NCBI GenBank assembly: GCA_016926755.1
Contig: JAFGNZ010000263.1
Coordinates: 1 to 43,653, forward strand
Length of the DNA: 43,653 bases
Reading direction: 5' to 3'
Source: Myxococcaceae bacterium
GTDB taxonomy: Bacteria; Myxococcota; Myxococcia; Myxococcales; Myxococcaceae
This document shows positions 2,136-22,478 of this stretch, in pieces (position 1 is the first letter of the stretch; every line of letters starts with the position of its first letter). Both the position numbers and the translations under genes were made by a program. The notes under the pieces are model-generated. The model did no database searches and had not been told where the DNA came from. It saw only the letters and a list, made by a program, of their open reading frames with translations.

Positions 2136-2260
2136 GGGGAGCCCCTCCTCCGCGCACGAGAGCTGGCGCGGAGTCCGCGAGCAGTAGAGCCGGCAAGCCG
2201 CGGGAGGACCACGCCCTCCAGGGTAGCGGCGCGCGTCCCACCCCCTCCCATCGCTTTGGC
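2136..2260. other. Intergenic gap upstream of the lipoprotein gene
   Basis: 125 bp between the epimerase stop and the lipoprotein start, both on the minus strand. It contains the lipoprotein ribosome-binding site and a short GGAGG/CCTCC inverted repeat near 2199-2220 that could be a weak terminator for the pruA-epimerase unit. No promoter can be called with confidence. Confidence 0.35.
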
Positions 2261-3103
2261 TCAGGCCTCGATCTCGAAGACGAGCGAGGAGGACTCTCCC
2301 GGGGGAACGGTGAACAGCCCCTCGCCCGTGGCCAGCGCTCCCGCGGCCGCCGTCCAGGGCTCCACGCAGACGAAGTCGCGCCCCTGCAGCGTCCAGACGA
2401 CGAGCATCCGGAACTCGGAGGTCCACGAGAGGTGCAGCGGTCGGCGCCCCGGGCCCCGGTGGAGCACCGTCCCCTCGCGCGAGTGGTCCCTCAGGTGCAG
2501 GTCCACCTCGGCGGCGGTGAGATCCAGCCCGGTGAAGGGCACCTCCTTGCCCTGTTGATTCTCCCAGGCGCGCGTGGCGTCTGTCTCGATGCGGGCCTCG
2601 GCCTTGGCGGCCTGCGGCACGGAGAAGTAGGGGTGGAAGCCCAGGTGCAGCGGCATGGGGCGCGTGTCCCGATTCTCCACGTCGAAGTTGATCGCCAGCT
2701 GTGTGCCATCCAAGAGGAACGTGAGCTGCGCGTCGAAGCGCCAGGGGAACTGGCGCAGCGTCTCCTCCGAGGAGGCGAGGTTCAGGACCAGCAGCGACTT
2801 CTCCACCTGGCGCACCGTCCACGGCAGCCGCCGGGCGAAGCCGTGCTGCGGCAGGGAGTACGCCTGCCGCTCGACGGGATAGGAGTCCCCGGGGAGCCGG
2901 CCGGCCGTGGGGAAGAGGACCGGAATGCCCCCGCGCACGTTCTTCGAGAGATCCGCCACGGTGCTCTCATCGAGGAAGAGCACCTCGTCCCCGTCCACGC
3001 TCATGCGCGTGACGAGAGCGCCGCGGCTGGGGATGAGCTCCACCCGGCTCTTCCCGTCCACCAGCGCGTACGTCTCCAGCCCGCCGATTCCCTGGAACGG
3101 CAT
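2261..3103 (-). CDS. Aldose 1-epimerase / D-hexose-6-phosphate mutarotase family protein
   Basis: 280 residues, cytoplasmic, ATG at 3103. It belongs to the galactose-mutarotase fold. H87 in QHGFAR, H157 in the GFHPYF motif and E248 in CVEPWTA sit where the mutarotase catalytic His, second His and general-base Glu are expected. The family interconverts alpha and beta anomers of free hexoses or hexose 6-phosphates, and the sequence does not decide which substrate is used. The length is usual for bacterial members. The start lies six bases beyond the pruA stop, so the two genes are almost certainly cotranscribed, although I see no direct metabolic link between them. Confidence 0.9.
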   Translation of the reverse strand: MPFQGIGGLETYALVDGKSRVELIPSRGALVTRMSVDGDEVLFLDESTVADLSKNVRGGIPVLFPTAGRLPGDSYPVERQAYSLPQHGFARRLPWTVRQVEKSLLVLNLASSEETLRQFPWRFDAQLTFLLDGTQLAINFDVENRDTRPMPLHLGFHPYFSVPQAAKAEARIETDATRAWENQQGKEVPFTGLDLTAAEVDLHLRDHSREGTVLHRGPGRRPLHLSWTSEFRMLVVWTLQGRDFVCVEPWTAAAGALATGEGLFTVPPGESSSLVFEIEA

Positions 3104-4747: not shown

Positions 4748-4862
4748 GCGGGACCTCGGGTTCAGGGCGGAAGGGCCGCGCAGCATAGCCCTTTGTCCCC
4801 GAGGTGGGAGCGGAAAGCCCGGCCGAGTGCCCGTGGGCGAACAGCCGGGATGACCGGGCGCG

Positions 4863-5267
4863 TCAGCTCTCCTGATCCAGGTGGATGGGAGGCTCGTTCG
4901 GGCCCCGCTCCCGGTTGAGCAGGGCGTGGAGCTGCGCGATGAGCTGCGGAGGCTGCACGGGCTTGAGGAGGTAGGCGTCCGGCTGCGAGGAGGGGGCCTC
5001 CCCGGCCCGCGGCGGGTAGCCGCTGAGGAAGACGACCCGGATGTGCTGGAGCCGTGGCTCCGCGCGCACCCGGCGGCACAGCTCGTACCCGTCGATCCCG
5101 TCCAGGTTCACATCCGACAGGAGCAGATCCGGGGGCCGCTCCATCATCTTCTCCAGCCCGGACTCGCCTCCCGTGGCCACGCTGCAGTCGAACTCTCCGG
5201 CCAGGAGCAGACGCAGGGTTTCCCGCATCGTCCGAGTGTTCTCCACGATAAGCACTTGAGGCTTCAC
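4863..5267 (-). CDS. Stand-alone receiver-domain response regulator
   Basis: 134 residues, one CheY-like receiver domain and no output domain. The phosphoacceptor is D52 (LLLSDVNLDG), the switch Ser is S82 (VVFLSG) and the conserved Lys is K102 (LLKPVQPP). The usual acidic pair near residue 10 reads E9-N10, so the metal-binding pocket is altered. The start is GTG at 5267 with only a weak upstream GGGG. No histidine kinase is adjacent, so its partner lies elsewhere. It probably acts by protein-protein contact. It lies 115 bp upstream of pruA on the same strand and may or may not be cotranscribed with it. Confidence 0.88.
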   Translation of the reverse strand: MKPQVLIVENTRTMRETLRLLLAGEFDCSVATGGESGLEKMMERPPDLLLSDVNLDGIDGYELCRRVRAEPRLQHIRVVFLSGYPPRAGEAPSSQPDAYLLKPVQPPQLIAQLHALLNRERGPNEPPIHLDQES

Positions 5268-5657: not shown

Positions 5658-8600
5658 TCAGAGCAGGTACCACCGGGCTTCCCAGTAGCGGAGGAGATCG
5701 CCCAGGGCCTTGCGTACCTGCGTGGAGTCCCCGCCCATGTGCCGTGTCGACTCGATGGCTACGAACAGATCCTCGAAGGTGGCCTCGATGTCTCCACGTT
5801 GCTCGATTCGTCGGGCCTCGACTCTCTCGAGCCGTGCCTCGATCTCGCTCACGGTGTTCGGGTCATGAGCCTGGAGCGGCTCGAGGGCAGCCCGGACCCG
5901 TGTGAGCAGCTCGCTGGTGGGCAGAGGCTGTGCCAACTCCAGGCTCCGCGGCCCCAGGCCCAGCGGAGCGGTGCCTCGCAGCGAAGTCACCGCGGCCGAC
6001 ACGGCATGGCTTCCGGCACCCTCGGGCAGTCGGACGAGCATGCGCAGCTCGCGCGTCGAGCCCTGCTCCATGGAAGGCTCCCAGATGACCCCACGACCTC
6101 CCGGAGCGATGCCACCCTCCGAAGAGGCCCAGAGCGCGGCGACGGCCGAAGGGAGCGTCTCCACCACGCGCAGCCGTGCATCCCGTGCGCGGCTCGTCAA
6201 CCGCAGCTCGACACCGGCCACTCCCAGCGGAGCGGGTTGTGGCGCCGCTGGCATGACGTGGGCCACCGACTGCCGGAGGGCGAGCGCCGCATGAGCGGCG
6301 GGAAGCGCGTTCGTGAGATCGACACCGAAGGTGACCGAGCGGCCCTGGCCTGGCGTGTACAGCGCCCCCGCGAGCTTCCCGCTGTTCTCGGAGTAGACCG
6401 CCGCGGGCCGTACAGAGGGCTCCTGCGCCTGGAGGATGACTCCGCCAGCGGGAGTGCTCAGGTAGGCGGGCCCTGCCAGCGGAGAGGAGGGGAGCTGCAC
6501 CTGTCCCTGAGGGCTCGTCCCGAGGAAGTCGACGCCGAGCGCCTCGCGCAGCAGGGGCATCTCCTCCGCCCGCGAGCGGATGACCACGAGGCCCGAGTGT
6601 CCGGCGAAGACCTGCTCGGTCAGCTCTCGCGACCACGCCTTGCGGATCTTCATGGCCTCCGTGCCAGCAGGATCGGTCTCCTGCGGCACGATCGCCTCGC
6701 TGCACTCACTCCCCGTGCTGCCGAGGCTGAAGATGACGACCACGTTCGCCACCCCGGAGCGGAGGGCTTCCAGGAACGCAGCCTCCTCGGTCATGAGCGT
6801 GAGGAGCCGCTCGGGGCCACCCAGCTCGGCCTCGAGGAAGGACTGGACCCGCTGCACCTCCGCGGCGGTAGCGGTGCAGGTGCCCGCCCGCACCAGTGCC
6901 AGCACGCGAGTGAACGAGGCCGCGGCGACCTGCGCAACCTCCACCTGCTCGGCCTGCAGGGAGAAGAGCAGGGTCTTCTCCGTCACCCAACCGGCCAGAT
7001 CCTCTGCGCGGACCGTCAGCGTGTAGCTGCCGTCCTGGGTGACCGGTGTGCCGGACATGAAGGGCAGGCCATTGAGCCGCACGTCGCTCGTGGCGAGGTG
7101 GGCGTCCTGGAGGGTGATGATCGGAGTGACGGCGCTCGGGTACTGGGTCTCATGGGTGACACCGCTGACGTCGATGGCCGGCGGAGTCTGGTCAACGGTG
7201 AAGGTGAGCAGACGCTCCGTCTGGTTCCCGGCGCGATCCGCCGCCCAGGCGCGGAGGGTGTGAGCACCCTCGGCCGTCACCACTGTTCCCGGAACGAACG
7301 GCTGGTCATCCAGCGTGATGGAGGACTCCAGCAGGTCGCGATCCCGGACGGTGACGACGGGCATCACGTCCTGGCGGAAGACGCCTCCCTCGGTCACCCC
7401 ATGGATGGACACCCAGGGCGCGGTCATGTCCACGGTGAACTGCAGGCTCTCCACGGTCTCGCGCCCGGCGAGATCCGTCGCACGGACCACCAGCTCGTGC
7501 TGTCCATCCGTGGTGACCGCGGTCCCCGAGAGGAAGGGCACACCGTCGAGGGAGATGTGGACCGAGGCCAGATGGTCGTCCTGCACCGCCACGACGGGGA
7601 CGGCAGCGTCCTTGAGCAGCGCTCCGTTCGTGACGCCCGTGATGGTGACCACGGGCGGCGCGGAGTCGAAGAAGAGGGTGACGCTCAGCTGGCTCGTGTT
7701 TCCCTCATGGTCCGTCGCGGTGAGGACGAGCGTGGTGGGATTCTCCCAGAGAGAGAGCGGGCTGAGCCAGGTGCCGTCGAACGCGGTCCCGCTCGTGAAG
7801 CCCATGGCGATCTCCGAGGGGTTGTTGACGACCTGGTAGAAGACGCTGGCCACTCCGGATTCAGCGTCGATGACTCGGACCTTGGGATACTCGGGGCCAC
7901 TCAGGACCATGCCGTCCGCGAAGTTGATGGGCAGGAGAGTGGGGCCCTGGCCATCCGCGAGCCGGAAGCGCGCGGAAGCGAGCACCTGGCTCGTTCCATC
8001 CGGCCTCTCCGCGAGGAGGTACGCCGCATAGCTCTTCAGCGGCAGGCCGGCCGTGGAGAAGTCGTGCTGACCCGAGATGGAACCCCCCACCTCGATCGGC
8101 TGGGCCGGCAGCGCATGTGAGGCCACGGCCTGCTCCGTATCAGCATCGATGATGGCCACCCGCAGCGCGGCGCTCGGCTCCGCGCTCGTGCCTTGGTTGC
8201 CCGCCGCGAAGTCGACCGTCAGCGTCTGCCCTGACTTGACCACGGGAGGAGTCCCCTGGCCGAGGACCGAGATCGCACCCGTCAGCAGGGGACGACCCTC
8301 GACCGAGAAGTGCGCCGAGGCGGTCGCGAGCTGCCAGGAGCCGAGGCTGATGACGCCCTGAGCCGTGTACTGTCCCGGCGGGAGCGCCAGGGAGGACAGC
8401 TCCGTGTGTGCCGAGTGGCTGGCGCCCTGGGCCATCAGCGGCAGCGCGGTGGTGGCCGCCAGCACGGGGACGCTCTGCGGCCCCGTCACGGTGAGCGCGT
8501 AGCTCGCGCCCTCCAGGAGGCTGTTCGTGGAGTCGTTGCGCACGGTGGCGGTCAGCGCGATGGTCTCACCAGGGACGTAGCTGGCGCGCGATGTGGCGAG

Positions 8601-11600
8601 CCTCAGGTGCGTGGTGCGATCCGCCTGGATGGTGAGCGGCGCCCCCATCTCGCTGAGGACCTCGGTGCCTTCACGCACCACGGCCTTCACCTGGTACGGC
8701 CCGGCCAGCGTCCGGCCCACCGCCACCCGTCGGGTGAAGGTGATGCTCTTGCCAGCGCCCAGAGGCGCGAGGTGCTCGCTCTCCCCCACCTGGAAGACGG
8801 ACTCTCCCTGAGGCGTGACGAGTTGGACCTCCACGTCGACGGTCCTCGGGCCGCCGGGGTTCGCCACGGTAATGGTGGCCAGACTCTCCCCCTCCACGTT
8901 GACCGTTTGAGGCGAGACGGAGACAGCCACCACGGGCTGGTCGTCAGGCGCCAGGGAGAACGGGTAGCGCACCCGGTTGTTGTCCCGCGCCGGGTCCTCC
9001 ACCCGCTGCTCGGGGTCGACGATGATCTCCAGGAGCTGCGGCCCCTGCAGCGACGGATGAGACAAGGGAACGACCGCCGTCGTCACCCCACCCGAGGGGA
9101 GGGCCGGCAGGGAGATGGGACTCGGCGTGATGGACTGGCCATCCGGAGACAGCACTGCCACCGAGAGGGTCGTGGCAGGAGCCGCGCCTCCGCCCTGGTT
9201 CCGCACGGTCACGAAGGCATCGAACGGGTGTCCCATCCGAGGAGCCTCGGGGCGGAGCTGCACCTCCGCGGCGAGGTCCGGCAGGTGGGCCGAGTCCAGG
9301 GTGAGCTGGATCGGAGCCGCTGGGAGGCTCGTACGCTGAGCCGCATCCGTGGCGGTGGCGGAGAATGAGGTGTCCCCCGGCTCCAGGCGCACGCCTGTGA
9401 ACTCGAAGCGGGCGCCCCACTCCAGGCGGGCAAGGCCGCGAGGCATCGACGCGAGCAGCTCTCCAGGCTGGCTCCAGGACAGCCGCAAGCTCGAGAGGCC
9501 ATCGAACCGCTGCTCTCTGCCATCCTCGTGGATCACCAGGAAGTTGCCGCGCTTGAAGGCCAGGCGCTGCCCGTCCGGGGAGAAGGCCGGCATGCTCTCA
9601 GCCTCCGCGCCGTGGGTCAGCCGCACCGAGGCGCCGCTCGAGACGGAGACGGTGTACAGATCCGTCTGCCCATCCCGGTTGGCGACGAGCGCGATGCGTC
9701 CCGAGTCGGGTGAGACCGCATAGCCCGGCTCGATGGAGGCGGCCTCGAACAGAGAGGTAGAGCCGCCGGAGACCGGATCCATCCGGACCAGCTGCCGGGT
9801 CCCACCCTTGTCACTGATGGCGAAGAGCGAGCTCCCATCCGGTGAATAGCGGGGTGCCATGAGCTGCGCACCGGCCTCGCCCGTCAGCCACTCCTCACTC
9901 CCCGTCTCGAGGTCCACCACGACGACCGCGGCTGGCACACCAGAGCGGGTGAGCTGATAAGCCAGCTCTCGAGAGTCCGAGGACCAGGTGGCGGACACCT
10001 CAGGGCCCTGGGAGGTAGTGGCAGGCCGTCGCACCTCGCCCGTGTCGAGATCCGCGATGAAGAGCTCCGGCCGGAAGGTCGAGAGCGAGAGCACCTGGAT
10101 GGCCACGCGCCGTGCATCGGGCGAGAAGGTCACCTCCTGGATGAGGGAGGGTGACGGGAGGTTGAAGGTGCCGAGCAGCTCACCCAAGCGCGACTCGACG
10201 GCCAGGGCCTGGGTCCCGCTGGCGCTGTCCTGCACGACATAGGCGACGCGCTGCCCATCCGCCGACGGCCAGCCTGAGCCCGCCGGAGTGAGGCCCAGCT
10301 CCAAGGGCAAGGCCTCGACGCCGAGCGCACCCGCGGGAGCTTCGGCATGGGACAGGCCATTTCGGAGCAGGGTGACGCGAGTGCCTGGCTCGGTGAGACC
10401 GGAGAGGGTCACCGTCGGGCTCGAGACCGTCACGGGCCTGCCGGCCACTGTGGGCCGCATCAGGCGCGGCGGGGCAGGAGGAGTCAGGTCTACCGGCACG
10501 CCCGTGGCAATGAGCGACGGGCTGCTGAGGTTCCCGAGATCATCGAGCGCGAGGATCCGATAGCGATACCAGGTGTTGTCGCTCAACGGCAGGTCAACGA
10601 TCCGGGTCGTGCTGACGCGCTCGAAGCCGGCAAGGACCTCGAAGGTGCCTTCCGCGCCGAGGGCACGCTCCACGCGATAGGCCACGGACCGAGCATCCCC
10701 AGGCGCCCAGCTCACCGCCAGGGCACCGCCCGAGGGAAGCGGCTCGACCGCCACCTCCACGGGCGCGGCGGGCGGCGCGATCTCCACCGTCACCGTGACG
10801 CCATTCGAGGCAGGACCCCGGAAGCCGCTCTCGTTGAACGCATGGGCGCGATACGTGTACGTGCCATTGCGAACGCCCCGATCGACGAAGCTGCGCGCGG
10901 CAGCGGGGGAGGGCGGCAGCTCCAGGGTGCCCTCGCTGCCCTCGCGAACGAGCACGTACCCCGCGACATCCTCCAGCGCTCCCTCGACGGAGAGGCCGAG
11001 CGAGACGTCCGACTGCTCCACACCGCCGAGCGCCAGCGTGAGGACCGCGCTCGGAGCCGGGGCGCTCATCACCGTCACGGTTTCGGAAGGAAGGCTGCGG
11101 TTGCCTGCTCCATCCGTCGCGCGGACCTGGAAGTCGTTGGCCCCAGGAACCAGAGGCGCGGTGAACTCGAAGCGACCCTGCGCGTCCGCCATGGTGGTGG
11201 CGATCACGCCGGTCCCATTGAAGAGCTCGACCTGCGCGGATGGCGGAACCTCGCCGCCCTGGAGCGTGACGGAGCTCTCCGGTGTCGAGGCCACGGTGGC
11301 TTCCAGCCGGGGGGCATAGATGAGGACGGAGACCTCCGATGGCTCGGAGGGAGTCCCCCCGAAGCCCATCGCACGCAGGCGGTAGGTGTGCCGGCCCGCG
11401 GGGAGGGAGCTGACCAGGGCGGAGGTGCCGTGCTCGAGGGGCAGCGCGTCCAGCTGCACGTCCTTCAGGGACGGGCTGCCATTTCGGACGGAGAGGAACG
11501 TCACCCGGATGGCATCGACCTCGAGGGCCTGCCCCAGCGAGTGCGTCCGGGACAGGGAGGTCTTTATCTCCGCATCGGCGGCGAGCGTCACCCAGAAGCC

Positions 11601-14600
11601 GGCGACCCGTGCCTCCAGCCGCAGCTGGCTCTCAGCCCCCGTGTGAAGCGCCAGCTCTCGCAGGAGAACCGGCTCCGCCAGCGCGAGCGTCCACGCTTGA
11701 GGGAGCGGGGACCAGGGAACCCAGCCCGTCACGTAGGGATCAGCGTCGTAGGCGGCGGCCGGCGAGCCAGACAGGGTTGATGTGGCGGAGGCCGTGCCGG
11801 GCCACCGCTCGGGAGCCTGCGTGACGGGCGCGCCCGCCGTAGACAGCTCGAAGCCCGCGAGCAGACCCGCCGGGTTCGTGTCCGTCCAGGAGAACTGGAC
11901 CTGATCGCCGTCGACGAGCGCCGTCAACGACGGCTGGGAGGGGATCGCCTCCTTCAGCACGTGGATCGAAGCAGGCGAAGGATCGACCTTGTTGGAGCTG
12001 TCCCTGGCAATGGCCCGCAGCTCGATCACCCGGCCGCTGAACGGCGAGAGGGGCAGGCGCGAGGTAAACGGGATCTGCGTCGCCGGAGCTCCGATCGTGG
12101 CGAAGGAGCCGTCCGGCACGCCGCGAGCCTCGAACTGGATCGAGGCGATGTCCTGATCCTCGCCATGGGCGACCAGCCATGCGTCATGGCGCAGCCGCTC
12201 GAGCGCTGCCGGCTCCGTGAGCCGCGCCGTGGGAGGCCGCGTCTCGACCGTGGCCTGGCGGCTGTTCGAGGGCACGCTGATGTTGCCGGCCCGGTCGATG
12301 GCCACGAGGTGGTAGGAGTGGCTTCCGTCCGGAACGAGCATGTCCACATAGCTCCGGCTGGTGGACGGGAGCGCGTAGGGCCGCAGGTCCCGAGGGCTCG
12401 CCTCGCCCGGACTCCCCAGCGGTGCGCCATTGCGGAAGGGCACGAACCCGAGCACATCCTCCTCGGGGTTCGCCTGCCACGTGAGGGTGACCTTCGCCCC
12501 CGAGACCGTCGCGCTGTCGAGCACCGGCGCCTCGGGTGGCAGGTTGTCGACCGTGAACGTGACGCGGGCCTCGCTCACGTTGCCGATCAGGTCCTCGGCC
12601 TCCAGGCGCAGCGTCTGGATCGAGCCCTGCGGGAGCGGCAGCACGTCCAACTCGCCCAGGAGCCCGTTGCTCACGGGCAGCGGAGCGCGCTCCAGGAGCG
12701 TGAAGCTCGCCGGCGAACTGCCCGCCCCGAGCGACACGCGATACTCCCGGAAGTCACTCTGGCTGTACGCGGTTCCCTGGAGCTCGAGCAGCCCGCGCAC
12801 CCGCTCTCCGGGGGCAGGCGCGAGCCACAGCGCGATGGGCGGCGTGGCGTCGATCTCCACCTGAGCCTCGGGCGAGGGGTTGCTCGTGTTCCCGGCGGCG
12901 TCGCGCGCGAGGATGAAGTAGCGGAAGCGCCCATCCGGAAGACCGGTGTCCAGGTACGAGCGGGCCTCCCCGCCGAGCGTCGCGATGAGCACGGCGGAGC
13001 CACTGGCCGTGGCCCGGAACACCTCGTACGTCGTGACATCGCCCGAGGGGCTCGCCTCCCAGGTGAGCGCGACGGTATTCGGACGCTCCACGGCCGCCGA
13101 CAGCGCGGGCGCGGGCAGGGGGGCGATGGAATCGACGGTGAACGCCGCCTCGTCCACGGACTCGTTACCGGCCGAGTCACGGACACGGAGGCGAGAGACG
13201 TAGGCACCGTCTCCCACGGAGGCCAGGGTCGTCAGCACACCCGAGGAGACCGGCTGCGAGGAGCTCGCGATCCGCTGGAGGCCATCGGCCGAGCCAGCCT
13301 CTCCGCGACCGAGCTCCAGCTCCCAGGTGGACAGGTGCGCATCGGTAGCGGAGCCGCGGAACGCGAGCTCCTTTCCATGCACCCCGCCGCGAGGCTCGAC
13401 CAGGGCCGCCACGGGCGGCGTGCTGTCGAGCACGAGGGAGATGAGGCTATCAGCCGTGTTGCCGGCGGCGTCCTCCGCCACCAGGTGCAGCTCGGCCGGG
13501 CCATCGGCCTCATAATCCACGGCCCACGAGTGGATGAGCCCCTCTGGCGGCAGGCTCGTCCCCGTGAAGAGCGTCTGCGTACCGCTGACCGTGGTGGCTT
13601 CGAGGCGCACCGAGCGGAGGTGCGCATCCTCGGCCTGGCCACGGATGGCCAGGGGACCTGCGCCTCCGGAGAGGATCGCTCCACTCGTAGGCGACAGGAA
13701 CGAGACGAGGGGCGGAGTTGCGTCCACGGTGAAGGACACGGACTGCTCGCTGGCGTGCCCCGCCCGGTCATGGGCTTTGAGCACGAGCTGATGAGTCCCC
13801 TCCGCGAGTCCACTCCGCACGGCGAGGACGCCAGAGGCAGCCGAGCTCCCGCTCGCGATCACCTGCCCAGCGTTGTTCTCGCCGGGGGCGACGTGGGTAA
13901 GCGTCCAGCTCTCGAGGCGGGTGTCATCGATGAGGCCCTCCACGGTGAGGTTGGCTCCATAGACACTGCCAGCGACAGGCGAGCTCAGCACGACGTGAGG
14001 AGCGCTGAGATCGATCTCCAGCGACGCGAGCGCCGCCTCCACCGTCGAGCCGGAGTCCGCCGACACGCGCAGCGTGTAGACGCCGTCCGGGAGCCCCTCG
14101 AGCGCCGCTCCAGCGAGAGGCAGCTGGCTCAGGTCAGCAGGCAGCGCGGTGGGCTCCACCAGCACGCGCATCGGCTGGCCAGCGCCGTCGAGGAGCGTCA
14201 CGCTCACGGTCGCGGGAGTGGCCAGCGTGACGCTGAGGACGGTCGTGTCCAGCACCCCATCTCCGTCGGGGGAGACCAGAGTGGGCACCACGGCGGTGGC
14301 CTGCAGCAGCGCCCCCGGCTGATTCTGGAACCGCCGCAGCGTCTGCTGGGAGTTGCCAGCCTGGTCCTCCACGATCAGCCGCAGCGTGTACTCGCCCGTC
14401 GGCAGGTTCGCGAGAGACACCGCCCCGAGGACACCCGAGGCAGCGGTGGGAGCCGAGGCGATGGGGCTGAACTGGCCCGGAGAGGCTCCCTCGCCGAGTG
14501 ACAGCTCGTAGCGGAGCAGGTTCTCGTCCGTCGCCTGGCCGGTGACGGTGAAGGACGCCCCCAGCACCTGTCCCTCGGCGGGGAAGTCGATCCGCGCAAC

Positions 14601-17600
14601 AGGGTTCGTCGTGTCCAGCCGGACCAGCGTGGACGCTTCACCCGTCATGCCGCAGGCCCCTGTCGCGCGGACGCGCAGCCGGTAGGTGCCATCCGCCAGG
14701 CGCGTGCCTCCCGCCAGCCCATCCCAGGGCACCTGCTGATTCCCCTCCAGCAGCGGCCCCTGGAAGATCGTGTAAACCTGTCCCCCAGCGGCTTCGGCGG
14801 TGATGGTGACGGACACATCCTGGTCGACCGTGAGCTGGAGGGTCGTGGTGTCGAGCCTGCCATCCACGTTGGGAGAGAAGAGCTCGGGCGACACCGAGAG
14901 GGCGGTGACGGACGGCGGCGTGGCCACCTCCACTACCACGGGAGCGGCGCACCACGAGGAGCCGCTCACATCTCGCGCGCTCAGCAGCAGCTCGAAGTCG
15001 TCTCCCCAGTGGGTGATGTCAATCGTCCCCAGCACTCCCTGAACGGAGCTCGGGCTGGACGGTTTGAACGCCTCACGGAACACACGCTGGGGCACACCGC
15101 CGGACGTAACGAGCAGCAGCTCATAGGACTCCAGGTGACGATCCGCGACGCTCCCCTCGACGACCAGGTAGCGCTCGATCACGCCCGCCGAGTTCCGGCG
15201 GTACTCCGGGCAGAGACGCCCTGTGGCGGCCGGGCGCGTCACGACGGTGCTCGCCGGAGTCCGGTCGATGAAGAGCGGCTGTGCCTTGGCACTCGTCTTC
15301 TCGCCGGTGGACCAGGTGGCCGTCGCGCGGAGCCAGTGAGCGCCCTCTGGCAGCGCCTGAGCGTTGATGCGGACCGTGGCGTTCACCCCTGTGGCCCCCG
15401 GCACGACACCGGAGACCTCGGGCTGAGAGATCACCTCTCCCTGCGCGGAGACGATCTCCACGCTCAGGGCCTGAAGCTGCCTACCACTGCCCTGACCGAT
15501 GAGGCTGGCCGTATGGATCGGCGCGTGGATGCCGCACAGGGGAGCGTCCGCATCCCGGAGCGGAGACGAGAGCTCCAGCGTACTCGGCGGAGTGGTCAGC
15601 GAGTCCTCGTCATTGCAGCCCGGATCGGGCAGCATTGGATCATCCTCCTCGAGGTTGGGCTCGGTGACGAAGTGGGTCCCGTTCGTGAGAGTGGCCCGAG
15701 CCCTGAGGGTGTGTCCCGTTCGGTTCGGGAACAGCGACCAGTCGAGCGGGTGGACCGGCGAGATCCCCTCGAAGGGCCCGAAGCGCGCGACGACCACGTC
15801 ATGCCCCAGGTGGGTCACGAACACTTCGGCTGAGTCGATACCCTGCCGGAAGGACTCCGAGAGAGAGAGGCCGTCCTCGCCCAGGGTGACCTGGGCCTTG
15901 CAGAGATTGACTTCGCCCCGGGTCACCCGGTCAAACAGACCGGGGTCCAGGAGCTCCACATCGTACTCGCACTCACTCAAGGCCGAGGTGGAGATCGTCT
16001 GCCTGACCGAGATGTAGAGTCCCTTGTGAGTCAAGGTCGGCACGGCGGGGAAGTACGTCACCTGACCTGAGTCCTTCGCGGTGAAGCTCCACCGAGCCGC
16101 CGGGTTGAAGTCCTCGATCCTGCTGTTGGAATCCCCAACGTAGGCAGTGAGCACGACGGCCTCGCCAGGTCGCGTCTTGACGCACGCGAAGCGGGTCGCG
16201 CTCGGCTGATTAGGACCGATGGCTTCTTTGAGAATGACTGGAGCCCGGAGGAGCTTCTGGTTCTCATCGAGAGCCCTGATCTCCAGCTCGGAGATGCGAC
16301 CTGCCCCACGCGCATCCCAGATGACCATGTTCTCCCCCACCACCCTCACGTTCTGGGTGTCGACCCGCCACTCGTCCCCCACGGAATACGCAATGGAGAA
16401 CGACACCAGGCGGGAGCCGCTGCTCGTGTTGAGGCCAAAGGCGTATTGACCGTCCTCCAGGGCCTGCCTCGGGAAGCTGAAGACCGCTGTCCCTGCTCCG
16501 TTCGTCTCTTCCAGAGGCGCTCCCGGGATGCGAGGCATGGTGTGGCCGGGAAGCGGCCAATACCCCAGGAAGAAGTCAGGCATGGGGGGGAGGCCCCCGA
16601 GCGTGACGAACAGCCGGTCATCGAGCTGGAGCAGCGGCGTGAGCGTCTGGTTGCCGGCCCGATCCCTGGCTCGGAGCCGGAGCGAGCCGCGCAAGGTGTC
16701 GATGGCAATGGCGCGCTCTCCGACGAAGGGGGTGCTCCCCGTCATGAGAGGCCTGTGCACCGTGGGAGCCTCAGGAGAGGAGACCTCCAGGGCCCATTCC
16801 GTCAGGTTCGTATCCTGGACATCCCAGAGGGTGGCCGCGGTCACGATTCGCTGGAGCTGGAGTTCGTCCTGTCGTGAGTCTCTTGCCGCGACGGGCTTCA
16901 GGTAGAGATCAGTGAGCCGGTAGGGCGCGGGCAGGCCCGAGTCTCCTATCTCCGAGAGGCTGAGCTCCGCCAAAGGCGGCGTGCTGTCGACCACCACCGA
17001 GAGCCGCGTCCCGTCGAGGCTCAGCGTGTACTCACCGTCTGGAACGGGCTGGCCCTGGGCATCACGCCCATCCCAGCTCAGCGTGAAGTCCCCGGCCACC
17101 TCGTGAGGCAGGGCTTGCTGACGAACGACCTGGTTGCTCGCATCCAGGATCTGGAGCTCCCCGATGGTGGCCCGGGTGATGGTGTAGCGGAGCTCGACCG
17201 TGTCGAGGACGCCGTCGCCATTGGGCGAGAAGAACTCGGGGGCGCGGGACACGTTGGCCACCGCGGGGCTCAGGCTGTAGCCAAAGGCCACCGTCCGGGT
17301 GCGGACGTTGCCCGCGCGGTCCCTCGCGAGCAGCTGCGCCTCGTACATGCCAGGCCCCGGCGGGATCCACTCCGTCAGCCGCCCGTTGAGCACCGGGGTG
17401 GTGGAGGTGGCCACCGCGACGAACGGCCCCGAGGCGCCATAGGCGCGGACACCGAGCTGCCACTCCTCGAGGTTCAGATCGGCCACCGTCCCCTGGAAGC
17501 TCATGCTGGCCGCGCCCGGAGTCCGGGTCGCCGTCAGCCGGACGAAGAGGTTGTCCCGCGTGGTGATCGCGCTCAGCGGTGCGCTCGCCCAGTCATCCTT

Positions 17601-20600
17601 GAAGCCGAAGAGGAAGCTGCCGCCATAGGACCAGCGCAGCGCTCGAACGTCGTAGGGCAGCAGCATGCGCGCCGCGCCAGCCGCCGACACGGTCCAGATC
17701 TGGGGAGACGTGCTCAGCAGTGGACTGTGGCGGAAGGCGATGCCGCCGCTGGTGGGGTGGGGCGCGACAGCGGCCCATTCCTCGGTGAAGTCCAGGGACT
17801 GGAGGGTCCCCGCGAAGAGCTGCCGAACCTCGCCCGTCGTCCCATCCTTGAGGGAGAGCTGGGGAGCAAGCGGGCCCCAGCCATCCGACTCGGGGAGGAG
17901 CCCAAACAGGCCTGGATTCGAGTAGGCCAGCGCCTCGCCGGAAGCCGTCCAGCCATGGCGGAGATCCATCCTGTACTCGACGTAGAGCGAGTCGGCCTGC
18001 CACAGACCGGTGATGGTCGTCGGGGGGAGGAACTCCTGGCGGTTCCCCTGTGGCAGCTCGATGACGAAGAGAGCGCCTCTTTGATCGACGACGGCCAGGC
18101 GGTCTCCCCCTGGGGACAAGCTGGCCTCGATCAGCGGATGCTCGCTGCGCGCCAAGGTGCGCCGCTGGGTTCCATCGACGCGGATCTCCTCGAGGGTGAA
18201 CTCGGACGAGGAGAGCTCGTAGTTCACGAAGTACACCCGAGCGCCGTCTCGGCTGAACACCAGGGGGAACTGGGTGCTGAGCAGCTGGCCCTGGGAGTCA
18301 TCATCCTCGGCGATGCGGAGGATGCTGCGGTCCGCCACCGATAGGATCTCCAAGGTGGAGCACGTGCTGTTGCTCGGCTCGCAAATCCCGATCCCGTGGA
18401 AGGCAATCCAGCGTGCATCCGGACTGACAGCCGGTCCACTCAGGAGGGGGTAGGTGTCACATGGCCAGTCATCCGGCGTGAGGCGCCGCGCCCGAGCGCC
18501 ACCGAGCGGCTGATGGAACAGGCCACACTGGCCAGTTCCATGCTCCTGGCCATAGAACACCACGCCGCTCTCATCAGGCATCGCGGCAGCAGGGCTATCG
18601 AACATGGGGGTGGCCGTCCCCTCGAGGTTCTCCACCTCGAGTGACGAGAACTCGGAGCTGTCCAGCGGCGTGCGGTTGGTGTCCACCACGGCGGTCAGCG
18701 TCCCCAGCATCGCCTCCGTGGCGGGAGCCAGCGTGCGCACGTGGATGCGGTAGAGGCCGTCCGGGACGATGCGCCCCTCGCTCGACCGGCCATCCCACTG
18801 GAGGCTCGACGCGGAGGCCGCGGGCGCCGAGAGGACCCGGACCCTGCGCCCCTGCTCATCCTCGATGAACGCCTCCACGGGCGCTTCGGCTGCGAGGCGA
18901 TAGGAGATCTCCGTCGCATCCCGGACGCCGTCTCCATTGGGAGAGAAGTAGGGCTCGGACAGCGCGAGCGCCGCATCCTGCACGGACACCTGCCGCTCGG
19001 CGCGGTTGTTGTCCGCGCGCTGCTCGGGCACCGTCTGCCCACGGTTGATGACGGCGATCAGCCGCTGTGGCCCGCGAAGTCCCGTGGTGTTCCAGGTGAT
19101 GAGGGCCTCACCCCGCTGGCCCGGCGCGATGGCTGGAAGGGTCGCCTGGCCGATGGGCTCCTCGCTCCCTCCGGCGCCCACGCGCAGCAGCTCCACCTGG
19201 ACGCCCTCCGCGCCCTGTCCGCCCGCGTTCAGCACCGACACTGTCACCGGGACGGAGGTGTCCTCACGCGGGAAGGCCGGGGTCGGCCGGATGTCCGCCG
19301 CGGACACCACCAGGTCCGCGATCGGAACCGGAGAGATGACGAGGAAGCTCTGGTTGTCCTCCTCGTCGAACTCCGAGACGGCCTGCGCACCGTCCAGCAC
19401 GACGTAAATGCGCTCCGGTGCATCCTGGGGCAGGGTGAGCGTCCCGGTGATGGAATGTGAGGCCCCAGCGGCCAGCGCGGCGATCTGCTCCTGGTGGAAC
19501 CGCGTCCCGCCTTCCGCGGGAGCCCCCAGGTACAGGTCCACGGTGAAGCCCTGGGCCTCGCTCTGGCCGCTGTTGCGGACGGTCACTGTCACGGTGGCCG
19601 CCTGTGTCTCCAGGGGCGGCTCGGGCGTGATGGACAGGCTGCCCGAGACGATCATCAGGTTGGGCAGCGAGGACGGCAGCACCTCGAAGAGGGTCGAGCC
19701 CGTGTCATTGCTCGGGTCCAGATCCCCCGGGTGCTGCACCCGCAGCGCGGCCTGCAGCGCGCCCGCGACGTTCGCGCGCCAGAGGAGCTGACCCGTGGCC
19801 TGGCCCCCTGCTGCCAGGAGCTGCGAGGCGAGCGGGAGCGTCGCGACCGTGGCTCCGCCGGAGAGGATCTCCAGGCTGCCGGTGGACTGCGCCTCGGTGG
19901 TACCGCCGTTGGTCAGCGCATACTGGAAGACGATGTCCTGCCCCTGGTTCACCGTGGCCGGAGCCGTCAGCCCCGTGACGCGCAGGTCTACCCCGGGGCT
20001 CAACCCGAGCTTCACCGTCCCCGCGTTGTTGGTCTCGACCGGCTCCTGCACCACCTGGGCCGGATCCACCTCCACCGTGATGACGCCGGAGGCCTGCACC
20101 GAGGCGACCTGCACCGTCCAGCTCACGAGCTGGCTCGACTGCGCGCCGAGCGTCAGCTGAGACGTTGCGAGCACCTGCGTCCCCATGCGGGCGACCACCT
20201 CCACGGGCGGAGCGTCGGTCTTGCCGAGGTTGCCCACGCGCGCGTTGATCACCACCTGCGCGGGGAGCCGATCAACGGCCGCCGGAGTGACGGTGACGCC
20301 GCCCGCATGGGCGATCAGATCCGGCGGGGTCGGGGCCTCGGACACGAAGAGGGGAACGGCGGCCCGGTTGTCGGACTCCTTCCCTTCGTCGAGCGTCCCC
20401 TCCGGATCCGCCACGACGAACACCTGGCTCGACCCTCCCGACTGAAGGGTGTCGAGGGACAGCAGCAGCTGAGCGCTGTCACCCGCCTCGATGAGCGCGA
20501 CCTGGACTCCCGTCCCCAGCGGCCGGCCCAGCGAGTCGAAGGCCTGGACGAGGACATTCCGCGCCTCGGCATAGCCCGTGTTCAAGACCCGCACGGTCGC

Positions 20601-22478
20601 CAGGACGGTCTCGCCCTCCGTCACCTGCGTGGCGGAGAGCTGGACGTCCGTAGGGGCCAGGCTCAGGTTGGGCGTGAGGACCAGGCGCAGCGCGCGCAGG
20701 GCCAGCGCCGTGTCCACCAGCGAGCCCTCCCAGCTCCCATCCTGCCGCTGCAGCCCGAGCAGGGCCTGCTTCGCGGAGAAGGCCTCCTCGGCCGTGAGCT
20801 GCCCCCACGTGGCGAGCGACGTGAGCGCCCAACCGGTCGAGGCGACACGAGAGCCTTCCTCCAGGAAGAGGCCATTCGCCTGACGGTGGTCGCGGAGGAA
20901 CTCGAAGGCCTGGGTCGCCGCGGCGCTGATGGCCGGCGTCCGGGGAACCCGGGCCAGGTACTCCAGGACCAGGGCCGTGGGCTCGAACCGGCTGGGGCCT
21001 CCCGGCAGCGCCGGCCAGCCGCCATCCAGGTTCTGGCGCTCGAGCAGGAAGCGCGTCACCGCGGGAGTCGAGTCGGGCGCGGCGGGCGGCTGCGTCAGCG
21101 CGAGCCCGAGCAGCGCCGTGTCGAGCAGGGTGGAGCGGTAGCCGGGAGACAGCCCCACGCTCCCGGACGGCTGGAGCCACGCGCGCAGGCGCGCCAGGGC
21201 CGCCGCGTTCCCACCCTGGGTGGCGAGCGAGAGCCGCGCCAGGCCGTCCACGTCGATGGGCTCGCGAAGCTCCAGCCATCCATCGGCGCGCTGGAGCGCG
21301 GCGGGCACTCCCGCGCTGGAGAGGAACAGGCGCAGCACCTCGACGGCCTGCTGCGTGTCACGCATCGCGGACTCCGGTCGGCTACCCCAGTCTCCAGCGA
21401 GCGTCTGCTGGGCCAGCAGGTACGAGAGTCCGAGCTCCACGCCGGGGTTCTGCGCGACGGGGCCCGGCGGCTGCTCCACGAGATCCGTCTCGAAGATGCC
21501 CCGCCCCCGCGTGAGGAAGAAGAAGTGGTTCTCGAAGGCGTGGCGGAGCGACTCGGCGTAGGCGAGCTGGGCGGTCGTCGCGGACTGCCCAGCGGGCGTG
21601 AGGACGATGAAGGCCGCCCGGAAGTGCTTCTGCGCGCTGCCGCTGTCCGGAAGCCGGGGCCCCTCCGCGCGGAGGATGTCGTCAATGCCCAGCAGCCGGG
21701 AGGTGGCGGAGATCCGGGTCCCCTCCGGTGGAGGGAGGTCCGCCGGAGAAGCGGAGGGCTCCTCGGGGGCCGGAGAGAGCAGGGACAGCGGGCCCACCTC
21801 CCCAGGGTTCAGGAAGCCCATGAGGTACAGGTCCAGCGCCGAGTAGCGGCCCATCCTGCCGACGGACTCGAAGCTCCCGGGCTCCCGGGTCTCCCAGTCC
21901 GAGCCGTAGAGCACCGAGGCCTCCGAGTCGAGGTAGTAGCTCCAGTGGGCCGAGTCCCTGCCCAGCAGGGCCTCGCTGCGTGGAGCGGACGGCGTCTCCT
22001 TGAAGCCCACCCGACCCGACCACTGGTGGGCCACCTCGTGGGCCAGCACGACGGCGCCCCACTCGGTGGACGCGGGCACTCCCTGCATCAGGGCCCGCAT
22101 GTCGATGTAGCCCTTGAGGCGCGCCAGGCTGCCGAAGCCAGGGCCGTTGTCGAAGAGGGACTGGCCGATGCCGCTGACCTGGTTGCGCACCCCGACATGG
22201 AGGCCATCCGCGTCCTTGCCCAGGACCGCGTTGAACGTCGGCAGCACCACCAGGAAGTCGTAGTTGTCGCCGTGCGTCGTATAGAACTTCTTCGCCACCT
22301 CCTCCCGGGCCCGGATCCAGGCGTCGGAGCCCTCCGTGACGCTGTAGTTGGGACCCGAATGTCCCAGGACCACGACGTCCCCACTGGCTCGGCTCACTCT
22401 GGGGAGCATGACGGTGATGAGGGCCCACGCGAGCATCACGGGGCGGATCCACTTCCATCCTTCTTGGCGGCTTGGCAT
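5658..22478 (-). CDS. Giant secreted multidomain protein, about 5606 residues, with HEXXH peptidase-like head
   Basis: The uninterrupted frame codes for roughly 0.6 MDa. I chose the ATG at 22478 because a signal peptide follows directly (basic start, hydrophobic MLAWALITVMLP, then RASGD). A Met at 22523 would put 15 extra residues before it. Approximate order by position: peptidase-like domain with HEVAH at residues 147-151 and a later LDLYLMGF motif (22400-21480); alpha/alpha-barrel repeats with Q-x-x-G-x-W (21460-20680); CARDB repeats (20660-19000); FlgD-Ig-like modules with SPNGDG (18965, 17230) or variants (14880, 14280); TolB-like propeller (18640-17580); Ig-like repeats; FnIII-like modules from 13130; discoidin-like module (11810-11440); second propeller (10290-9420); more CARDB; three near-identical Ig repeats (7655-6960); C-terminal region (6960-5658). 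It is probably an extracellular or surface protease or adhesin. The role is unknown. Confidence 0.9.
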   Translation of the reverse strand: MPSRQEGWKWIRPVMLAWALITVMLPRVSRASGDVVVLGHSGPNYSVTEGSDAWIRAREEVAKKFYTTHGDNYDFLVVLPTFNAVLGKDADGLHVGVRNQVSGIGQSLFDNGPGFGSLARLKGYIDMRALMQGVPASTEWGAVVLAHEVAHQWSGRVGFKETPSAPRSEALLGRDSAHWSYYLDSEASVLYGSDWETREPGSFESVGRMGRYSALDLYLMGFLNPGEVGPLSLLSPAPEEPSASPADLPPPEGTRISATSRLLGIDDILRAEGPRLPDSGSAQKHFRAAFIVLTPAGQSATTAQLAYAESLRHAFENHFFFLTRGRGIFETDLVEQPPGPVAQNPGVELGLSYLLAQQTLAGDWGSRPESAMRDTQQAVEVLRLFLSSAGVPAALQRADGWLELREPIDVDGLARLSLATQGGNAAALARLRAWLQPSGSVGLSPGYRSTLLDTALLGLALTQPPAAPDSTPAVTRFLLERQNLDGGWPALPGGPSRFEPTALVLEYLARVPRTPAISAAATQAFEFLRDHRQANGLFLEEGSRVASTGWALTSLATWGQLTAEEAFSAKQALLGLQRQDGSWEGSLVDTALALRALRLVLTPNLSLAPTDVQLSATQVTEGETVLATVRVLNTGYAEARNVLVQAFDSLGRPLGTGVQVALIEAGDSAQLLLSLDTLQSGGSSQVFVVADPEGTLDEGKESDNRAAVPLFVSEAPTPPDLIAHAGGVTVTPAAVDRLPAQVVINARVGNLGKTDAPPVEVVARMGTQVLATSQLTLGAQSSQLVSWTVQVASVQASGVITVEVDPAQVVQEPVETNNAGTVKLGLSPGVDLRVTGLTAPATVNQGQDIVFQYALTNGGTTEAQSTGSLEILSGGATVATLPLASQLLAAGGQATGQLLWRANVAGALQAALRVQHPGDLDPSNDTGSTLFEVLPSSLPNLMIVSGSLSITPEPPLETQAATVTVTVRNSGQSEAQGFTVDLYLGAPAEGGTRFHQEQIAALAAGASHSITGTLTLPQDAPERIYVVLDGAQAVSEFDEEDNQSFLVISPVPIADLVVSAADIRPTPAFPREDTSVPVTVSVLNAGGQGAEGVQVELLRVGAGGSEEPIGQATLPAIAPGQRGEALITWNTTGLRGPQRLIAVINRGQTVPEQRADNNRAERQVSVQDAALALSEPYFSPNGDGVRDATEISYRLAAEAPVEAFIEDEQGRRVRVLSAPAASASSLQWDGRSSEGRIVPDGLYRIHVRTLAPATEAMLGTLTAVVDTNRTPLDSSEFSSLEVENLEGTATPMFDSPAAAMPDESGVVFYGQEHGTGQCGLFHQPLGGARARRLTPDDWPCDTYPLLSGPAVSPDARWIAFHGIGICEPSNSTCSTLEILSVADRSILRIAEDDDSQGQLLSTQFPLVFSRDGARVYFVNYELSSSEFTLEEIRVDGTQRRTLARSEHPLIEASLSPGGDRLAVVDQRGALFVIELPQGNRQEFLPPTTITGLWQADSLYVEYRMDLRHGWTASGEALAYSNPGLFGLLPESDGWGPLAPQLSLKDGTTGEVRQLFAGTLQSLDFTEEWAAVAPHPTSGGIAFRHSPLLSTSPQIWTVSAAGAARMLLPYDVRALRWSYGGSFLFGFKDDWASAPLSAITTRDNLFVRLTATRTPGAASMSFQGTVADLNLEEWQLGVRAYGASGPFVAVATSTTPVLNGRLTEWIPPGPGMYEAQLLARDRAGNVRTRTVAFGYSLSPAVANVSRAPEFFSPNGDGVLDTVELRYTITRATIGELQILDASNQVVRQQALPHEVAGDFTLSWDGRDAQGQPVPDGEYTLSLDGTRLSVVVDSTPPLAELSLSEIGDSGLPAPYRLTDLYLKPVAARDSRQDELQLQRIVTAATLWDVQDTNLTEWALEVSSPEAPTVHRPLMTGSTPFVGERAIAIDTLRGSLRLRARDRAGNQTLTPLLQLDDRLFVTLGGLPPMPDFFLGYWPLPGHTMPRIPGAPLEETNGAGTAVFSFPRQALEDGQYAFGLNTSSGSRLVSFSIAYSVGDEWRVDTQNVRVVGENMVIWDARGAGRISELEIRALDENQKLLRAPVILKEAIGPNQPSATRFACVKTRPGEAVVLTAYVGDSNSRIEDFNPAARWSFTAKDSGQVTYFPAVPTLTHKGLYISVRQTISTSALSECEYDVELLDPGLFDRVTRGEVNLCKAQVTLGEDGLSLSESFRQGIDSAEVFVTHLGHDVVVARFGPFEGISPVHPLDWSLFPNRTGHTLRARATLTNGTHFVTEPNLEEDDPMLPDPGCNDEDSLTTPPSTLELSSPLRDADAPLCGIHAPIHTASLIGQGSGRQLQALSVEIVSAQGEVISQPEVSGVVPGATGVNATVRINAQALPEGAHWLRATATWSTGEKTSAKAQPLFIDRTPASTVVTRPAATGRLCPEYRRNSAGVIERYLVVEGSVADRHLESYELLLVTSGGVPQRVFREAFKPSSPSSVQGVLGTIDITHWGDDFELLLSARDVSGSSWCAAPVVVEVATPPSVTALSVSPELFSPNVDGRLDTTTLQLTVDQDVSVTITAEAAGGQVYTIFQGPLLEGNQQVPWDGLAGGTRLADGTYRLRVRATGACGMTGEASTLVRLDTTNPVARIDFPAEGQVLGASFTVTGQATDENLLRYELSLGEGASPGQFSPIASAPTAASGVLGAVSLANLPTGEYTLRLIVEDQAGNSQQTLRRFQNQPGALLQATAVVPTLVSPDGDGVLDTTVLSVTLATPATVSVTLLDGAGQPMRVLVEPTALPADLSQLPLAGAALEGLPDGVYTLRVSADSGSTVEAALASLEIDLSAPHVVLSSPVAGSVYGANLTVEGLIDDTRLESWTLTHVAPGENNAGQVIASGSSAASGVLAVRSGLAEGTHQLVLKAHDRAGHASEQSVSFTVDATPPLVSFLSPTSGAILSGGAGPLAIRGQAEDAHLRSVRLEATTVSGTQTLFTGTSLPPEGLIHSWAVDYEADGPAELHLVAEDAAGNTADSLISLVLDSTPPVAALVEPRGGVHGKELAFRGSATDAHLSTWELELGRGEAGSADGLQRIASSSQPVSSGVLTTLASVGDGAYVSRLRVRDSAGNESVDEAAFTVDSIAPLPAPALSAAVERPNTVALTWEASPSGDVTTYEVFRATASGSAVLIATLGGEARSYLDTGLPDGRFRYFILARDAAGNTSNPSPEAQVEIDATPPIALWLAPAPGERVRGLLELQGTAYSQSDFREYRVSLGAGSSPASFTLLERAPLPVSNGLLGELDVLPLPQGSIQTLRLEAEDLIGNVSEARVTFTVDNLPPEAPVLDSATVSGAKVTLTWQANPEEDVLGFVPFRNGAPLGSPGEASPRDLRPYALPSTSRSYVDMLVPDGSHSYHLVAIDRAGNISVPSNSRQATVETRPPTARLTEPAALERLRHDAWLVAHGEDQDIASIQFEARGVPDGSFATIGAPATQIPFTSRLPLSPFSGRVIELRAIARDSSNKVDPSPASIHVLKEAIPSQPSLTALVDGDQVQFSWTDTNPAGLLAGFELSTAGAPVTQAPERWPGTASATSTLSGSPAAAYDADPYVTGWVPWSPLPQAWTLALAEPVLLRELALHTGAESQLRLEARVAGFWVTLAADAEIKTSLSRTHSLGQALEVDAIRVTFLSVRNGSPSLKDVQLDALPLEHGTSALVSSLPAGRHTYRLRAMGFGGTPSEPSEVSVLIYAPRLEATVASTPESSVTLQGGEVPPSAQVELFNGTGVIATTMADAQGRFEFTAPLVPGANDFQVRATDGAGNRSLPSETVTVMSAPAPSAVLTLALGGVEQSDVSLGLSVEGALEDVAGYVLVREGSEGTLELPPSPAAARSFVDRGVRNGTYTYRAHAFNESGFRGPASNGVTVTVEIAPPAAPVEVAVEPLPSGGALAVSWAPGDARSVAYRVERALGAEGTFEVLAGFERVSTTRIVDLPLSDNTWYRYRILALDDLGNLSSPSLIATGVPVDLTPPAPPRLMRPTVAGRPVTVSSPTVTLSGLTEPGTRVTLLRNGLSHAEAPAGALGVEALPLELGLTPAGSGWPSADGQRVAYVVQDSASGTQALAVESRLGELLGTFNLPSPSLIQEVTFSPDARRVAIQVLSLSTFRPELFIADLDTGEVRRPATTSQGPEVSATWSSDSRELAYQLTRSGVPAAVVVVDLETGSEEWLTGEAGAQLMAPRYSPDGSSLFAISDKGGTRQLVRMDPVSGGSTSLFEAASIEPGYAVSPDSGRIALVANRDGQTDLYTVSVSSGASVRLTHGAEAESMPAFSPDGQRLAFKRGNFLVIHEDGREQRFDGLSSLRLSWSQPGELLASMPRGLARLEWGARFEFTGVRLEPGDTSFSATATDAAQRTSLPAAPIQLTLDSAHLPDLAAEVQLRPEAPRMGHPFDAFVTVRNQGGGAAPATTLSVAVLSPDGQSITPSPISLPALPSGGVTTAVVPLSHPSLQGPQLLEIIVDPEQRVEDPARDNNRVRYPFSLAPDDQPVVAVSVSPQTVNVEGESLATITVANPGGPRTVDVEVQLVTPQGESVFQVGESEHLAPLGAGKSITFTRRVAVGRTLAGPYQVKAVVREGTEVLSEMGAPLTIQADRTTHLRLATSRASYVPGETIALTATVRNDSTNSLLEGASYALTVTGPQSVPVLAATTALPLMAQGASHSAHTELSSLALPPGQYTAQGVISLGSWQLATASAHFSVEGRPLLTGAISVLGQGTPPVVKSGQTLTVDFAAGNQGTSAEPSAALRVAIIDADTEQAVASHALPAQPIEVGGSISGQHDFSTAGLPLKSYAAYLLAERPDGTSQVLASARFRLADGQGPTLLPINFADGMVLSGPEYPKVRVIDAESGVASVFYQVVNNPSEIAMGFTSGTAFDGTWLSPLSLWENPTTLVLTATDHEGNTSQLSVTLFFDSAPPVVTITGVTNGALLKDAAVPVVAVQDDHLASVHISLDGVPFLSGTAVTTDGQHELVVRATDLAGRETVESLQFTVDMTAPWVSIHGVTEGGVFRQDVMPVVTVRDRDLLESSITLDDQPFVPGTVVTAEGAHTLRAWAADRAGNQTERLLTFTVDQTPPAIDVSGVTHETQYPSAVTPIITLQDAHLATSDVRLNGLPFMSGTPVTQDGSYTLTVRAEDLAGWVTEKTLLFSLQAEQVEVAQVAAASFTRVLALVRAGTCTATAAEVQRVQSFLEAELGGPERLLTLMTEEAAFLEALRSGVANVVVIFSLGSTGSECSEAIVPQETDPAGTEAMKIRKAWSRELTEQVFAGHSGLVVIRSRAEEMPLLREALGVDFLGTSPQGQVQLPSSPLAGPAYLSTPAGGVILQAQEPSVRPAAVYSENSGKLAGALYTPGQGRSVTFGVDLTNALPAAHAALALRQSVAHVMPAAPQPAPLGVAGVELRLTSRARDARLRVVETLPSAVAALWASSEGGIAPGGRGVIWEPSMEQGSTRELRMLVRLPEGAGSHAVSAAVTSLRGTAPLGLGPRSLELAQPLPTSELLTRVRAALEPLQAHDPNTVSEIEARLERVEARRIEQRGDIEATFEDLFVAIESTRHMGGDSTQVRKALGDLLRYWEARWYLL

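Follow-up and report, generated by a model that had tools for sequence, protein, structure and literature searches.

What might a soil myxobacterium do with a predicted extracellular protein of 5,606 amino acids (aa)? The question is raised by a gene on contig JAFGNZ010000263.1 of a Myxococcaceae bacterium (assembly GCA_016926755.1), the whole 43,653-nucleotide stretch of which is called the window below. Comparison of this giant gene with its relatives points to an answer in a second gene: the giant probably acts as surface carrier for a weapon system not yet described, and it is fairly probable, in our estimation, that it supplies the carrier in a polymorphic toxin system of two proteins in Myxococcota. 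The partnership of the two genes is well supported by comparative genomics, and the proposed mechanism less so.

The giant gene and its homologues

A preliminary description of this DNA had proposed a single 16.8-kb frame at 5658-22478, omitting its strand. The gene is present there on the minus strand (5658..22478), from an ATG at 22478 to a stop codon at 5658 (5,606 codons plus stop); it is the only long frame that fits these positions, and stops interrupt the plus-strand reading. The ATG at 22478 is preceded by an AGAGA-type ribosome site, as judged by eye, and its start context (MPSRQEGW) is also found in L031-L033; an alternative in-frame upstream ATG at 22523 would give a protein of 5,621 aa. 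The N-terminus (22386..22478, minus strand) resembles a signal peptide by eye, with positive residues followed by a hydrophobic stretch. The guanine-plus-cytosine (GC) content by codon position was coding-like in all 12 blocks of at most 500 codons each (0.79-0.92 at third positions and 0.49-0.55 at second positions), and uninterrupted homologous frames of 5,466-6,375 codons, stop to stop, are present in 14 other genomes. The coding-like composition and these intact frames make a chance frame or a hidden frameshift very unlikely, and an artefactual frame was ruled out on the same evidence together with the single minus-strand frame.

The 14 homologues were found, besides the window's own gene, by searching 144 genomes with the head of the protein. 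In BLASTP comparisons with the window protein, at identities of 27-66%, nine of them aligned in one piece over more than 5,100 residues, two in one piece over about 3,850-3,880 residues, and three in several collinear pieces. A recent, unique mosaic is ruled out by these collinear alignments to distant relatives. The preliminary description knew of no protein with this module order; no characterised one was found in the literature searched, and the collinear homologues in the 14 genomes and in Myxococcus sp. RHSTA-1-4, a named carrier of the giant, are undescribed. A sample of 195 genomes of the phylum contained 28 with a head match (E ≤ 1e-40), and in 18 of these the frame that bears it measures 4,449 aa or more; the giants of G145 and G147, among these 18, run to the contig end, and G011, with a head start of 108 aa at a contig end, was left out of the count. 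The giant is absent from four of the seven genomes of the window's genus. A Liptonbacteria metagenome-assembled genome (L046) gave a weak match in the alpha/alpha part of the protein, and phage and plasmid collections, searched with one query each, gave no match.

A partner gene encoding a putative toxin

Clustering of the genes that neighbour 12 homologues and the window (with one flank only for G019, G141, G056 and G110) revealed a second family of giant proteins, about 3,830-3,914 aa long if complete, near the giant in 7 of the 12. The survey of relatives for the same order and neighbours recovered a conserved order and, in addition, a partner that the preliminary description had not seen. 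The two partners scanned have a transglutaminase-like domain (PF01841) near the N-terminus, DUF6531, and RHS repeats (15 and 18 PF05593 stretches); one short partner (L136) had no RHS match. Cys is absent from what we take to be the transglutaminase catalytic motif in all 28 sequences read, and the domain is predicted to be catalytically dead.

The C-terminal tips of the partners are variable. Across 12 partner copies, one of them an extra cassette, homology mostly stops soon after the RHS core, with 281-385 residues remaining, more of which are shared by some pairs. Comparison of the last 130 residues yielded a single related pair at E ≤ 1e-3 (G006b and G013), and with the last 200 residues G062 and G163b were related too. 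One of ten tips is a YwqJ-like deaminase (2e-13), and the partner frame of G141 ends in an HExxH stretch noted by eye. In 7 of the 12 copies (G020, G119, G013, G062, G006a, G006b and G163b) a small open reading frame (78-194 aa, GC 0.46-0.61, from a list restricted to frames of at least 75 aa with coding-like GC) begins 4-38 nucleotides past the partner's stop codon, and these could be immunity genes. G125 has an extra RHS C-terminal cassette past its partner, and G163 has two tandem partners. Judged from its sequence, the partner is a polymorphic toxin: its transglutaminase domain is dead, its tips are exchangeable, and it usually has RHS repeats.

The two genes occur together. A profile of the N-terminal 1,600 residues of the partner (A5) matched 40 of the 195 genomes at E ≤ 1e-40, comprising 17 of the 18 with the giant and 23 of the 177 without it (Fisher test, p 1e-12, uncorrected for kinship). 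In the 23 genomes that lack the giant, the match lies wholly downstream of the transglutaminase region in 12 cases and covers this region in 11; counting transglutaminase-bearing matches, the comparison becomes 17/18 versus 11/177 (p 3e-16, likewise uncorrected), or 16/18 (p 1.6e-14) if G002, whose matches end at contig ends before that region, is not counted as matching.

The order and spacing of the two genes are also conserved. The partner is directly downstream of the giant on the same strand in 11 of the 18 genomes (G013, G019, G033, G051, G054, G056, G062, G119, G125, G141 and G163), and the distance from the giant's stop to the nearest plausible partner start is -28 to +11 nucleotides in eight of nine cases measured, the frame of the ninth (G033) being incomplete. 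Adjacency may be assumed in G110 as well, because the contig breaks at the junction and two partner contigs start with the giant's last 19 codons; these contigs (C134 and C138; L129 and L128) may reflect either a duplicated end of the giant or two tandem partners. A response regulator and a dehydrogenase stand between giant and partner in G020, and the G145 locus is cut by contig ends. In G000, G002 and G006 giant and partner are on separate contigs, and a partner lies in another neighbourhood that is shared; these three genomes have both genes, and the other four of the seven in the genus have neither (E ≤ 1e-40).

Transglutaminase genes elsewhere have similar company. At 17 other loci, where these genes are mostly shorter (950-1,300 aa), 12 of the 15 testable cases have, upstream and in the same orientation, a mosaic gene with the alpha/alpha domain and/or one of the two alternative tails of the giant (A or B, described below), L175 and L179 having been left out because of contig edges. 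The upstream mosaics of L171, L174 and L149 match the alpha/alpha domain only, and that of L177 tail B only; the mosaic of L178 combines the alpha/alpha domain and seven CARDB stretches with propeller repeats of the FG-GAP type and a DUF7305 tail. One of the short partners has Ntox16 (6e-7) at its end. The two-protein unit comes in a short form (about 2,400 + 1,100 aa) and a long form (about 5,600 + 3,900 aa). The loci L173 and L176 (in G164 and G080, respectively) are similar to each other, with ends that look nuclease-like by eye.

As a control, 8 of 13 places with RHS relatives that lack the transglutaminase region were inspected. The proteins there share the start and the immunoglobulin (Ig)-like region of the partner, and none of the eight has a match to the giant's head, alpha/alpha domain or tails (profiles A1-A4) within about 12-13 kb upstream. 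Thus, the mosaic appears to be tied to the dead transglutaminase domain and not to the RHS repeats. Giant and partner also diverge in parallel: their pairwise distances correlated in 12 genomes (r 0.76, or 0.72 after removal of the RpoB distance; 0 of 10,000 permutations), G000 having been left out for want of an RpoB match.

The preliminary description had envisaged a role in prey contact, adhesion or matrix. The neighbourhoods of the relatives point instead to a companion of polymorphic toxins, to which contact and adhesion may still contribute. That the giant is a surface adhesin, or a prey-contact or matrix protein, merely adjoining toxin genes, both being accessory genes of one variable region, seems unlikely to us: although the giant carries Ig, CARDB, discoidin and propeller modules, which are common in adhesins, although some homologues have tails like those of DUF7305 proteins and ice-binding adhesins, and although giant and toxin are on separate contigs in three genomes of the window's genus, the 17/18 co-occurrence, the same gene order and the close spacing extend over several families of the phylum, and mosaics were found beside none of the eight transglutaminase-less RHS genes.

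Several observations weigh against a carrier and toxin acting as a pair. In the genome from which the window comes, the partner is truncated at the end of a different contig, so the pair is not visible there, and G147, in which the giant is cut by a contig end, has no partner match at E ≤ 1e-40. The transglutaminase genes of L173, L176 and L180 have no mosaic upstream. There is no small gene right after the partner in 5 of the 12 copies (G033, G051, G054, G125 and G163a), and the deaminase is the only one of the ten tips named by Pfam at E ≤ 0.01. The two trees partly disagree, the distance from G163 to G051 and G062 being 1.54 for the giant and about 0.5 for the partner. Structure models were of low confidence, with a mean predicted local distance difference test score (pLDDT) of 33.7 for the head modelled with one homologue and of 41 for tail A modelled alone, which exceeded 70 only in part of its helical end. 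The departure of the G163 giant from the partner pattern suggests exchange between copies.

A proposed two-protein system and related toxins

In the proposed carrier and toxin system, component 1 (the giant) would be exported by its signal peptide and would serve as an extracellular carrier, in which Ig-like stalks and two propellers are joined by a discoidin module, a domain resembling squalene cyclase, the metallopeptidase head and a tail that can be exchanged. Component 2 (the partner) would contribute the dead transglutaminase domain, usually RHS repeats, and a toxin tip that is nearly always of a different type. RHS repeats form a cage that holds the toxin tip. Because the mosaic tracks the dead transglutaminase domain, that domain may be what docks component 2 onto component 1 at the cell surface; component 1 might then bind or position neighbouring cells, the presumed targets, and the head might help to process or release the toxin. 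It is conceivable, and in our opinion rather doubtful, that this amounts to a new principle of delivery, in which an extracellular giant takes up a toxin protein via a dead transglutaminase domain, both leaving the cell by way of signal peptides and coming together outside it, without an injection machine that spans the membrane, and which might be the missing route for some large myxobacterial Rhs proteins. A conserved giant that accompanies the dead-transglutaminase class of toxins, and not the class that lacks this domain, offers a genetic handle on the question of Rhs delivery.

Tc toxin complexes consist of several proteins with an RHS cage and a propeller. They differ from the present system in their families, as neither the giant nor the two partners scanned had a match to SpvB or Tc-family domains at E ≤ 1. 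The open-licence literature searched yielded no account of a giant protein that accompanies polymorphic toxins of the kinds considered below.

Zhang et al. (2012, PMC3482391) described inactive transglutaminases that precede RHS repeats and, in the portion available, suggested that the dead domain anchors the toxin by binding peptides; the conserved giant would give this domain a testable role. The polymorphic toxins in that source, which also has a TcdB/TcaC entry, resemble component 2 in having an N-terminal transglutaminase fold with a lost catalytic residue, RHS repeats and an exchangeable tip; its available portion names no giant companion and does not mention CARDB, and the window gene would be the companion, not the toxin. 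Large secreted Rhs toxins act in kin discrimination of Myxococcus xanthus independently of type VI secretion, their delivery being presumed by analogy with contact-dependent inhibition (PMC10433427, from the part accessible). Two of these, Rhs4 and Rhs5, are about 4,000 aa long with a signal sequence and a delivery that is not type VI (PMC10433427), and by their description there they are similar to component 2 in size, RHS architecture, myxobacterial host and signal sequence; the same excerpt mentions no accessory giant.

Teneurin-like surface polymorphic toxins are reported in more than 20% of Myxococcota (PMC13018210, as excerpted). Bacterial proteins of this kind share a propeller, beta-sandwich repeats and a YD shell with the present system (PMC13018210, PMC6425310), all in one chain and, in the excerpts of both sources, with no mention of a transglutaminase; here the propellers and the Ig array are in a separate, larger protein. 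The two genes could accordingly be seen as a split teneurin-like toxin, the beta-sandwich repeats and propeller having been placed in an upstream protein so that two chains form one particle. In the bacterial teneurin-like proteins the propeller and YD shell are preceded by Ig, fibronectin, carboxypeptidase-regulatory and CARDB repeats (PMC6425310, PMC13018210, in the parts available), and one short mosaic has carboxypeptidase-regulatory and teneurin-TTR-like matches. However, component 2 begins with a transglutaminase and Ig-like region of its own, the two scanned copies matched no propeller family at E ≤ 1, and the matches for the propellers of the giant are of TolB and WD40 types, with no NHL protein in those lists, so that we consider a split teneurin very improbable, the least probable of the alternatives discussed here.

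Modules of the giant protein and its neighbouring genes

The window protein was scanned with Pfam and NCBIfam, and profiles of homologue alignments were compared with the PDB; profile A7 was built without L040 and L044, A8 without L044, and A9 without L040. The scans placed CARDB, FlgD-Ig, Ig domains of the Big_13, Big_7 and OmpL47 types, and TolB/PD40 repeats. The secreted mosaic of the preliminary description, with its peptidase-like head, alpha/alpha-barrel segment, CARDB, Ig and FlgD-Ig modules, discoidin-like module and two propellers, was recovered in nearly the order given there, its secretion being suggested by the signal-peptide-like start; the fibronectin type III-like modules also listed were not, as the window protein had no Pfam fn3 match at E ≤ 1. 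Three slices of the giant were free of RHS-family matches at E ≤ 1, and a simple pattern found no YD motifs. All features of the giant given below are on the minus strand.

The metallopeptidase-like head (21456..22388) has an invariant H-E-H in all 15 aligned members (profile A1), in an HExxH motif that is HEVAH in the window (22026..22040) and is also present in G163, G145 and G147. Its family matches are weak: 11 of the 15 members match Peptidase_M1 at E ≤ 10 (best 0.0017), and the window head reaches 12.6 bits, below the cut-off of 27.7. A candidate, no more, for the third metal ligand is an invariant His-Trp-Ser that lies 27 residues past the motif. Shorter frames of about 400-1,000 aa that contain relatives of the head (for example L016-L022) are scattered across the phylum and possibly represent an unassigned peptidase family. 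The conserved HExxH and these separate relatives in other genomes would suit a giant that itself acts as the effector, in the form of a secreted metallopeptidase whose long array serves for targeting; component 2 would then be a separate toxin under the same control. The shorter mosaics at 12 of 12 loci, however, lack an A1 match, except that L149 has short ones overlapping with the alpha/alpha domain; the head is thus not the shared part, and we think this explanation improbable.

The alpha/alpha domain (20670..21458) matched squalene-hopene cyclase (3sqc) in the profile comparison with the PDB (E 8e-31). DxDD, presumably the catalytic motif of that enzyme, is present in 1 of 15 homologues and absent from the window copy, and a role as a cyclase was rejected for lack of it. 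An alpha-2-macroglobulin-like trap was likewise rejected, since the thioester motif CxEQ, which we take to be the mark of such proteins in this domain, is missing from all 15 copies; matches to C4/A2M profiles were weak.

An array of five CARDB domains (18996..20666; Pfam) is followed by the first FlgD-Ig-like domain, with the motif FSPNGDG (18690..18953, ends approximate; Pfam and motif), and by beta-propeller 1 (17565..18689, ends approximate), whose profile A9 matched PkwA (7.5e-16) and TolB (7.3e-15). Second and third FlgD-Ig-like domains were placed at 17007..17243 (Pfam and NCBIfam) and 14658..14849 (Pfam), and a Big_7/Big_13 Ig array at 13452..14603 (Pfam), with a fourth FlgD-like motif near 14016-14282. 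The discoidin (F5/8 type C)-like module with its flanks (11316..11921) is weak in the window copy (E 0.012), with F5_F8_type_C matched in 12 of 13 copies at E ≤ 1 (best 4.3e-10) and an F5/8-type protein matched by the profile against the PDB (3e-7). Beta-propeller 2, of TolB/PD40 type (9576..10295, ends approximate; profile A8, TolB 2.5e-27), sits inside an Ig-like domain, as judged by eye. A late CARDB domain (8973..9281) is one of two Pfam stretches in this third of the protein, and Big_13/OmpL47-type Ig repeats (6957..7556; Pfam and NCBIfam) end the shared core.

The giants split into two tail types after about residue 5,200. Tail A (profile A3), in 11 of 15 including the window (5661..6959), consists of a putative glutamine-amidotransferase-like part, a beta part and a helical end, YWEARW, most members ending in this or a similar sequence; the amidotransferase-like fold is suggested by a weak match of tail A to a beta-galactosidase chain (0.0021). 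The other four (profile A4) have in its place tail B, which is DUF7305/bactofilin-like (4.6e-12).

Downstream of the giant in the window are a response regulator (4866..5267, minus strand) and an aldehyde dehydrogenase family gene (3113..4786, minus strand), which we take to be delta-1-pyrroline-5-carboxylate dehydrogenase. The order giant, response regulator, dehydrogenase also occurs in G020, where the toxin partner comes after the dehydrogenase. A function read from the window neighbours (response regulator, dehydrogenase and kinase) was rejected because each is common to few relatives. Further along, a gene at 1092-2822 (minus strand) has an internal lipoprotein-like start and a nuclease-like C-terminus by eye and is followed by a 267-aa gene at 226-1029 (minus strand); neither product had a Pfam match at E ≤ 0.01, and the two presumably resemble a lipoprotein toxin and immunity pair of the SitA kind. 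A second possible toxin and immunity pair, again by eye and with no Pfam match at E ≤ 0.01, is at 41556-42632 and 40929-41528 (both minus strand). The gene at 33418-37611 (minus strand) encodes a protein of 1,397 aa with long Pro/Glu/Ala-rich repeats that ends in DUF6982 (2.9e-28).
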